DNA of 64,000 bases from Catenisphaera adipataccumulans. GTDB lineage: Bacteria > Bacillota_I > Bacilli_A > Erysipelotrichales > Erysipelotrichaceae. The DNA lies in contig NZ_JACHHK010000001.1 of NCBI RefSeq assembly GCF_014202755.1, positions 186,001-250,000 on the forward strand. Reading direction: 5' to 3'. Shown here in pieces: positions 8,693 to 10,295 of this stretch; position 1 is the stretch's first letter, and every line of letters starts with the position of its first letter. The position numbers and the translations under genes were made by a program. The notes below the pieces were generated by a model. The model did no database searches and was not told where the DNA came from. It saw only the letters and a program-made list of their open reading frames with translations.

Positions 8693-9153
8693 TTACACCT
8701 GCTTTCTGCGAATTAAGATACGGGGGTATGTATTTTTTGGTTTTCCGTCCGGTTGGATAATTACCGGAGTAGCGTTAAGGTCACTGTAATTAGGATAATC
8801 TTCTTTGGTATACACTTTTGATTTCAAGGCCGGGTCGCCCGCACCACGTTTTGCCATTCCGATAATTTCAAACTGGTCAGGATTGTATTTATCAAGAAAA
8901 GTAATCGGTACGCCCATAATACCGTTACACTTTACGTTTGATAAATAGGCGCTTATACTTTCGCTTACCGTCAATGAGTGGCTGTGCAACACCGCTTGAT
9001 TCGTTCCATATTCCGTTTGAGAATCCCTTTCCCTCGCTTTCGGTTGCTCCGACAAGTTCGAACTGGTCAGGGTTGTATCTGTCAAGGAACGTGATCGGCA
9101 CACCCATGATTCCGTTACACCTTGCGTCTGATAACGATTCGGCAGTATAGCCG
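8693..9153 (-). other. Alternative-frame C-terminal module for the methyltransferase
   Basis: An open frame runs from the CTGT tract to the stop at 8693-8695 in the frame reached when the tract loses one unit (or gains two). After about 70 out-of-frame linker codons it encodes 'KCNGIMGVPITFLDKYNPDQ' ending 'YPRILIRRKQV', homologous to the module 'RCNGIMGVPITFLDRYNPDQ' ending 'YKRLFIKRKV' used in the present frame. The two modules are also similar at DNA level (for example 8895-8935 versus 9090-9130). A GTG at 9103 could start it, but no convincing ribosome site is present. I read it as a switchable C-terminus, not a separate gene; a decaying duplicate is the alternative. Confidence 0.65.
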
Positions 9154-10295
9154 CTGTCTGTCTGTCTGTCTGTCTGTCTGTCTGTCTGTCTGTCTGTCTG
9201 TCTGTCTGTCAGAGCGTCGCCGCTATCAATAGACTTGTCAAGCCCCTTTTTCAAATAAAATCTACCTGTCCCACGTTTTCCATATCCTAAATCCACGGGT
9301 TCAGCGACCTGATAATCTGCCCCAACTAGTTCAAACTGGTCGGGGTTGTGTTTATCCATATAAGTTACCGGAACCCCCATGTTTTCAAAATAATCGCACG
9401 GGATTTCAGATACTTTGTTCACGTTGATTGCGTCGTAATTATCATATTTTGGATATTCATCCGGTGTATAATGCTTATACAGAATCAGATTTTCATGACG
9501 CTTCTGAATATCAAGATTCGTATACCAACATATATTACCCATACTGCGCCACTTTTGACCGTTCTTGTCTACCCAATAACGAGTTTTACGCGGTTCATAA
9601 TCATCCGGGACAGCAAAAGCCATATCACCGGATTTATAGCCCAACCATATTTTATTTTCCATAAAAAGCGGAAATACTTCTTTATAGGTTATTGCGTTCT
9701 GATTGCCAATAATAAGAAATTTTTTATTGTACTCAATCAGTTGTGCAACATAATCCCTAAACAATGAAAACGGCGGATTTGTAACCACAATATCAGCCTG
9801 TTTCAACAAGGCAACACATTCATCACTTCTAAAATCCCCGTCACCATTTAATAAGGTCATTGAATTGTGATTATCCCGCAGCAAATACTCTACATCAGAG
9901 AGATCAACCCTACCGTCCCCGTTATTGTCTTTTACCTCTGTAATTTCGACCTTATACGGTTTTTTGTCCTGTTCGATGGGTATATTATTTTCTTCCTGAA
10001 CAAAGGACAGTTGCCCGGTTTTATCAATAAAATACTGAAATTCTTTTCCAATAACCGGTGATGTAGCATAGCAGGTTGTAATCAGCTTTTTCAAACCCAA
10101 TGAATTAAAATTCATTGCAAAATATTTGAAAAAGTTGCTTTCATACGGGTCATCGCAGTTGCAAAATACAACCTTTCCTTTGAAATGCTGCTTGTAGTGT
10201 TTTAATTCATTTTCAATGTCAGAAAGCTGTGTATAAAACTCGTCCTGCTTTGCCTTTGCAGCTTTGTTCAGCGCTTTATTTCCCGCCATTGTCAT
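8925..10295 (-). CDS. EcoRI-family adenine-specific DNA methyltransferase, phase-variable
   Basis: 456 residues in the present frame. It matches the EcoRI-type adenine methylase family: 'DEFYTQLSDIENEL' near 18, 'FCNCDDPYESNFFKYFA' near 44 (SAM region), and the catalytic 'NPPFSLF' at 173-179. Such enzymes make N6-methyladenine. An EF-hand-like stretch 'DNNGDGRVDLSDVE' sits near 123. The C-terminus holds two copies of a 'GVP[VI]T[YF][ML]D[KR]xNPDQFELVG' module, separated by four TDRQ repeats encoded by the CTGT tract at 9154-9210. Changing the tract by one unit alters the C-terminus. The start overlaps the upstream XRE gene by four bases, so regulator and enzyme are coupled. Target specificity cannot be read from sequence. 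Confidence 0.85.
   Translation of the reverse strand: MTMAGNKALNKAAKAKQDEFYTQLSDIENELKHYKQHFKGKVVFCNCDDPYESNFFKYFAMNFNSLGLKKLITTCYATSPVIGKEFQYFIDKTGQLSFVQEENNIPIEQDKKPYKVEITEVKDNNGDGRVDLSDVEYLLRDNHNSMTLLNGDGDFRSDECVALLKQADIVVTNPPFSLFRDYVAQLIEYNKKFLIIGNQNAITYKEVFPLFMENKIWLGYKSGDMAFAVPDDYEPRKTRYWVDKNGQKWRSMGNICWYTNLDIQKRHENLILYKHYTPDEYPKYDNYDAINVNKVSEIPCDYFENMGVPVTYMDKHNPDQFELVGADYQVAEPVDLGYGKRGTGRFYLKKGLDKSIDSGDALTDRQTDRQTDRQTDRQTDSGYTAESLSDARCNGIMGVPITFLDRYNPDQFELVGATESEGKGFSNGIWNESSGVAQPLIDGKRKYKRLFIKRKV
9154..9210 (+). repeat. CTGT tetranucleotide tract (14 copies) inside the methyltransferase gene
   Basis: Fourteen uninterrupted CTGT units plus one C; on the coding strand GACA units encode TDRQ repeats. 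Tetranucleotide tracts inside methyltransferase genes are the classic slipped-strand phase-variation device. By arithmetic: 14 units gives the 8925 end; 13 or 16 gives the 8693 end; 12 or 15 gives a stop at 9115-9117, about 13 codons past the tract. Confidence 0.95.

Follow-up and report, generated by a model that had tools for sequence, protein, structure and literature searches.

Introduction

Phase-variable DNA methylases are mostly switched on and off, and switches of specificity are found mainly in Type I systems, where they work via recombination or a truncating slip. Repeat-driven change of a C-terminus has been described as C-terminal phase variation in Helicobacter canadensis (PMC2823697) and Neisseria gonorrhoeae (PMC5320596), where the reading frame is shifted by a repeat close to the 3' end while expression continues. 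The locus described here shares the repeat-driven change with these genes, whereas their alternative C-termini mostly comprise a few to some twenty residues, as opposed to complete homologous modules of distinct classes with a shared junction. In the Type I system NgoAV, a poly-G slip in hsdS changes the methylation target (PMC6789123), so that there, as probably here, slippage of a repeat re-targets a restriction-modification system; NgoAV, however, employs a Type I HsdS that is either truncated or full length (two states, with an in-frame repeat number as a separate feature), whereas the methyltransferase here is a single chain of the EcoRI family with a choice of three endings.

Storage of several specificities is also described for phase-variable Type I hsdS loci (SpnD39III, PMC4190663; survey, PMC7394358), of whose several target-recognition domains one is expressed at any time. 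The switch there is recombination between hsdS copies, and in the present locus it would be a choice of reading frame. Likewise, two reports on domain movement in Helicobacter pylori (PMC3077401, PMC3983042) describe recognition segments exchanged, via recombination between or within genes, among otherwise alike methyltransferases, whereas here the alternatives lie in tandem within one gene and are read by frame. M.EcoRI itself (L326, on an E. coli plasmid beside a gene annotated "type-2 restriction enzyme EcoRI") belongs to the same Pfam family, and its end, LIKFRKGVDEKDLSINGKCPYFRILIKNKRLQK, represents one of the ending classes discussed below and one state of two arrays among the relatives (L090 and L092); it differs in having a single module without a tract, and its own EcoRI nuclease rather than a DUF262-HNH protein. 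MhoVII (PMC12898733), considered as a related system, was rejected as belonging to a different methyltransferase family. The open-access papers that we searched describe neither a stack of three complete endings nor a tract of this kind in a methyltransferase of the EcoRI family. If the reading developed below is true, a short repeat chooses among three ready-made specificities by frame alone, which would make a very compact store.

The tract and its three endings

The window (the whole 64,000-nucleotide stretch of Catenisphaera adipataccumulans DNA analyzed here) contains, on its minus strand, a 456-codon open reading frame (10295-8925) that bears 14 perfect GACA units, or (CTGT)14 on the plus strand (9155..9210; 14.2 CTGT copies at 9154-9210 by TRF), the same number that a model-made first-pass annotation had counted from the letters alone. 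Its assignment of the gene to the EcoRI-type adenine methyltransferases was also upheld, as the encoded protein matches PF13651 with 543 bits against a cut-off of 26.4 (E=3.3e-163), and its catalytic (D/N/S)PP(Y/F) motif, TNPPFS, is invariant in family alignments A1 and A2, the window included. By its sequence, the gene is an EcoRI-family (PF13651) adenine methyltransferase. All parts of it lie on the minus strand: the catalytic core extends through the conserved block MGVPVTYMDKHNPDQFELVG of module 1 (9321..10295) and is followed by the variable part of this module (9211..9320), which precedes the tract and belongs to a class (RFYL) with members in L024, L166, L182, L254 and L284.

Units were added and removed in silico. 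The present 14 units lead to a stop at 8925 via module 2 (CNGIMGVPITFLDRYNPDQFELVGATESEG...RLFIKRKV; 8925..9119; PF13651 positions 277-345, E=3.5e-11), which is also read at 11 and 17 units. With 13, 16 or 10 units, translation ends at 8693 behind module 3 (CNGIMGVPITFLDKYNPDQFEIIG...RILIRRKQV; 8693..8929; C-terminus of PF13651, E=2.3e-13), and with 15, 12 or 9 (or 18) units it ends at 9115 behind module 1's own ending (RLYCRIVIRRKV; 9115..9153), a match to RLYDRIVIKRK of L024. The 15- or 12-unit product terminates in TDRQRLYCRIVIRRKV, matching the way in which intact relatives with a single module normally end (RLYDRIVIKRKG in L024); this end has the general form (R)xYDRIVI(K/R)(R/N)K (e.g., in L024, L166 and L220). 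Thus, each of the three frames that follow the tract runs into a complete ending of its own, an assignment that we regard as nearly certain. The frame arithmetic of the first-pass annotation (stops at 8925 and 8693, and an early stop) was reproduced, and its count of three states stands; what does not stand is its description of only two of them as complete, since the supposed truncation after gain of one unit or loss of two is module 1's own ending. A model of two complete states plus a truncated one was rejected on the same ground.

The three endings belong to different classes (RFYL for module 1, TESEG for module 2 and DLNA for module 3), each found alone in single-module relatives, and they are therefore not recent duplicates of one another. 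A repeat unit whose length is not a multiple of three lies within the open reading frame, and each frame has a product of its own. It is very probable that the tract switches the endings by slipped-strand changes. The openness of the alternative frame over module 2 is a weaker argument than first stated: in draws that kept the amino acids of module 2 and randomized synonymous codons, the frame stayed open in 10.6% of cases, as compared with the 3-4% chance estimated initially, so that open-frame probability was rejected as the chief evidence. That the arrangement goes beyond chance follows instead from module 3 itself, as a match to the C-terminus of PF13651, and from the same layout in relatives. 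The original proposal that the tract swaps complete C-terminal modules is supported.

Stacked modules among relatives

The stacking obeys a simple rule. Each downstream module starts with the DNA sequence TGTAAYGG, which in the frame of the upstream module reads as its end (...K V/M/L stop, from NTG TAA) and in the next frame reads C-N-G, opening the CNGxxGVPIT block of the next module. The rule is true at both junctions of the window, L254, L284 and L201; three frames are filled by three modules, and the tract upstream selects one. Three other arrangements were observed in passing. An orphan C-terminal module (RCNGIMGVPITFLDKYDPEQFIIVGATESEGKGFSNG...) without an adjoining methyltransferase core occupies positions 1-720 (minus strand) of L112, a viral or phage contig; it also starts with TGTAAYGG and may encode an independent protein or serve as a spare cassette. 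In L285, around 3700 (minus strand), a methyltransferase has two C-terminal modules fused in one frame, with neither stop nor repeat, possibly a two-specificity relative. Behind the third module of L284 lies a remnant of a fourth ending (YARIFIKR), which suggests that cassettes are gained and lost.

The relatives comprised 218 distinct methyltransferases with downstream sequence, in which tracts were scored from 9 nt (homopolymers), 12 nt (dinucleotide) or 15 nt (tetranucleotide repeats). A tract at this place was present in 8 of the 218 genes, all eight of them multi-ending, and 208 genes had neither feature; as scored by script, tract and multiple endings are strictly associated (8/8 against 2/210, Fisher p=7e-11). 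The script scored L201 as single, its further endings lying beyond the search range; by eye it is multi-ending, which would strengthen the association. The G runs of L018 and L020 are shorter than the tract threshold.

Repeats of several types (GACA, G, GA, A and T/ACAG) occur in the arrays. Besides the window, complete three-ending arrays are found in L018, L021 and L023 (G tract), L254 (T9 plus ACAG4), L284 (A9) and L201 (A11, immediately before module 1). L020 has the design of the G group with the last ending broken by two later deletions, L090 ((GA)7) and L092 ((GA)6) combine two complete endings with a truncated third frame, and L199 has a G7 tract with a single ending, out of frame. As to the possibility, raised at the outset, that module 3 is never in frame in homologues, the relatives carry stacked endings and read different ones: the first in L023, L254 and L201, the middle one in the window, L021 and L090, and the last in L018 and L284, with L092 and L020 at present in a truncated frame. 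Tract lengths of G6, G7, G9 and G10 and of GA6 and GA7 were seen across related loci of different species, in different frames. Near-identical copies of the element with another tract length were not found in viral contigs, phages or genomes, the closest viral relative being 73% identical in its best segment. A comparison of L090 with L092 (0.71 for the core, 0.64 for module 1 plus linker and 0.79 for module 2) gave no support to the idea that the GA switch had passed between them as a single unit.

Placing the arrays on a tree built from 95 cores takes six state changes, at least four of which are forced by well-supported branches; by this count, the array design is repeatedly gained or lost. 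Within the G group, distant pairs differ upstream of the tract at 46-50% of third positions and at 4-10% of first and second positions, as in ordinary one-frame coding, and behind the tract the differences are spread across all three codon positions; L018, L021 and L023 have no indel difference up to the last ending, despite only about 76-78% identity. Selection on more than one frame would be expected to give this pattern. Fetched plasmid and phage records with a recognized module had single endings and no tract, and outside the arrays, other loci whose nuclease lies at a distance showed no hidden endings in the intervening gaps. The arrays of L254, L284 and L201 are located on viral contigs, and L254 also adjoins a terminase gene.

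Endings, folds and DNA targets

Across 5253 pairs, the core was correlated with the neighboring nuclease (Spearman rho 0.66), as opposed to nearly vanishing values for core vs. ending (0.09) and ending vs. nuclease (0.03). By these comparisons, the endings are exchanged as cassettes, independently of core and nuclease. The exchange can be seen directly in L162 and L155, whose cores are 99% identical: their DNA shows 95.5% identity through the core, a replacement of about 155 nt at the ending, and a return to 95.2% identity across the nuclease.

One ending class is tied to a nuclease of known type. An EcoRI-like nuclease (E=8.6e-135 to 1ckq) lies beside the methyltransferase in six loci, five of which have the RFRKG ending, and in the sixth (L165) the copy that bears this ending is interrupted. 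Among plasmids, 17 match R.EcoRI at no less than 60% identity, and each of their records also contains an RFRKG ending; a single Helicobacter phage (n=1) combines the EcoRI nuclease with this ending. Thus, the PF13651 methyltransferases linked to R.EcoRI, which come from several phyla, have one ending class in all cases found; two more distant EcoRI-like nucleases have partners from other methyltransferase families. The RFRKG-EcoRI link may in part reflect shared ancestry of the cores (63-90% identical within the Bacteroidales set). The same class also occurs with a DUF262-HNH partner, and L090 and L092, the GA arrays, have it as their short state. As a separate observation, L099, L100 and L185 encode fusions of an EcoRI-family methyltransferase with a cytosine-5 methyltransferase, all with the ANHGSD ending class; an interpretation of 700-aa proteins as methyltransferase-nuclease fusions was rejected, their fusion partner being a cytosine methyltransferase.

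The methyltransferase has no sequence homologue in the PDB, and Foldseek alone gave no match at E <=0.001. In an AlphaFold model of the single-module L024 (mean pLDDT 85), the variable loop lies between two confident strands. Its core is similar to TaqI (1aqj/1aqi; Z 9.5, model about 17-305) and, up to residue 316-319, to MmeI (5hr4, Z 9.3) and DrdV (7lo5, Z 9.1); rRNA adenine methyltransferases score slightly higher than TaqI and MmeI on the catalytic fold, and the ending itself is barely probed by the structure search. In gamma-class enzymes such as TaqI and MmeI, the target-recognition domain follows the catalytic domain, and in the model the ending follows the putatively gamma-class catalytic domain in chain order. 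Cassette exchange in near-identical genes, the link of an ending class to EcoRI and the position in the fold together make it probable that the endings set the DNA target. The model of a two-module form has pLDDT <50 in the middle of the chain (residues 357-434); as a guide to the folding of module 2, the long-form model was unusable, since the alignment steers the result. The endings, with the L162/L155 swap and a class tied to the EcoRI nuclease, constitute a natural experiment on DNA recognition by EcoRI-type methyltransferases.

The partner nuclease

The methyltransferase is flanked on the same strand by two further genes. Directly upstream, and overlapping the start of its open reading frame, lies a gene for a small Cro/C1-type HTH protein (HTH_26; 10292..10501; PF13443, E=7.6e-18), a possible regulator of the unit. 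The partner on the other side is a DUF262 (GmrSD_N) protein with an HNH nuclease domain (7595..8686; PF03235, E=7.1e-18; PF01844, E=6.4e-16), which PADLOC classifies as a Type II restriction enzyme (REase_II, PDLC03418, 522 bits). Of 126 relatives, 109 have such a DUF262-HNH gene directly behind the methyltransferase. Should the ending determine the target, a nuclease that does not covary with it would have no fixed target of its own; given the rho of 0.03, DUF262-HNH is probably directed to its target by the methyltransferase or by the methylation state. This raises the question of how DUF262-HNH nucleases find their target.

Distal stops adjoin the nuclease start (8693/8686 in the window, +8 in L018, -3 in L090), and proximal endings leave gaps of 90, 185, 239 and 370 nt. 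From these positions, the frame may also tune translation of the nuclease.

Proposed mechanism and alternatives

We propose that GACA units gained or lost by slippage during replication in the host would move translation among three frames, each of which would end the shared catalytic core in a C-terminal module of its own, complete and distinct from the others. The variable stretch between the anchors GVPIT..NPxQFE and YxRIxIRRK is most likely the target-recognition element, so that the three products would methylate different DNA sites, and, with the nuclease following the methyltransferase, one slip would shift modification and restriction together. Taken as a whole, a slipped-strand, three-state switch of target specificity appears to us a reasonably probable account of this locus. 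The specificity switch suggested by the first-pass annotation is thus retained as probable in preference to on/off control, with three complete endings in place of its two. More tentatively, frame-stacked cassette arrays could form a recurrent class of epigenetic switches, in which a microsatellite picks the ending and DUF262-HNH receives its target via the methyltransferase; we consider this generalization possible rather than probable.

The most serious alternative, which we nevertheless rate as unlikely, is a switch of activity or dosage, in which a single ending is active or the frame tunes nuclease expression through coupling to the distal stop. The spacing of distal and proximal stops relative to the nuclease start fits it, as do the low-confidence middle of the long forms (residues 357-434), the G7 tract of L199 with its one out-of-frame ending, and the present truncated frame of L092 and L020, and some arrays may indeed act as on/off switches. 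A plain on/off device, however, needs no conserved complete ending in each frame, whereas each of three arrays with independent sequences retains a full set of three endings, all complete and of different classes; moreover, L284 and L201 have no such adjoining nuclease, and only the start of one is seen in L254. Rapid exchange of a short surface segment would also be produced by an arms race, if the ending were a surface for protein interaction or inhibitor evasion and slips altered binding of a phage inhibitor or of the nuclease at a constant DNA target. We hold this to be improbable: that R.EcoRI-linked PF13651 enzymes from several phyla share one ending class fits a fixed target better, and the absence of correlation between ending and nuclease speaks against nuclease binding.

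Tandem duplication may have left spare modules beside an incidental repeat, with a single form ever made, which would agree with the ease with which the alternative frame of module 2 stays open in synonymous draws and with the small fourth remnant in L284; given the strict association of tract and multiple endings, the independent repeat types with a different class per frame and the multi-frame constraint in the G group, such a relic is very improbable. Still harder to uphold is slippage of RNA polymerase or ribosome that makes all forms at once as a mixed enzyme pool. Transcriptional slippage in bacteria occurs at homopolymers of the length present in L201 (A11), L284 (A9) and L254 (T9), whereas the window and L090/L092 use tetra- and dinucleotide repeats, classical units of DNA slippage, and among relatives with G or GA tracts the frame differences are already present in the DNA. 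The three-state specificity switch is the reading that we prefer.

The carrier element

The HTH-methyltransferase-nuclease unit is located at one end of a 13.6-kb element bounded by 30-bp direct repeats (7519..7548 and 21081..21110, 29/30 identical), the left one of which is a putative attachment site. The element encodes an integrase, repressor, VapE-type primase, portal, capsid with protease, terminase and head completion protein; among the open reading frames listed for 7519-21110, no tail genes were recognized. The element is flanked by two parts of a serine recombinase gene on the plus strand (7085-7483 and 21165-22424), and from their positions the carrier seems to have inserted into the recombinase of another mobile element. 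By its observed gene content, which we take to resemble that of capsid-forming phage satellites, the carrier is a probable satellite of this kind, with the restriction-modification unit as cargo. Outside this element, the window encodes a long phage-type protein (2770-5241, plus strand), the start of which resembles a chitinase-like glycosyl hydrolase (DGIDIDLE motif), followed downstream by a lysin-like gene (5718-6707).
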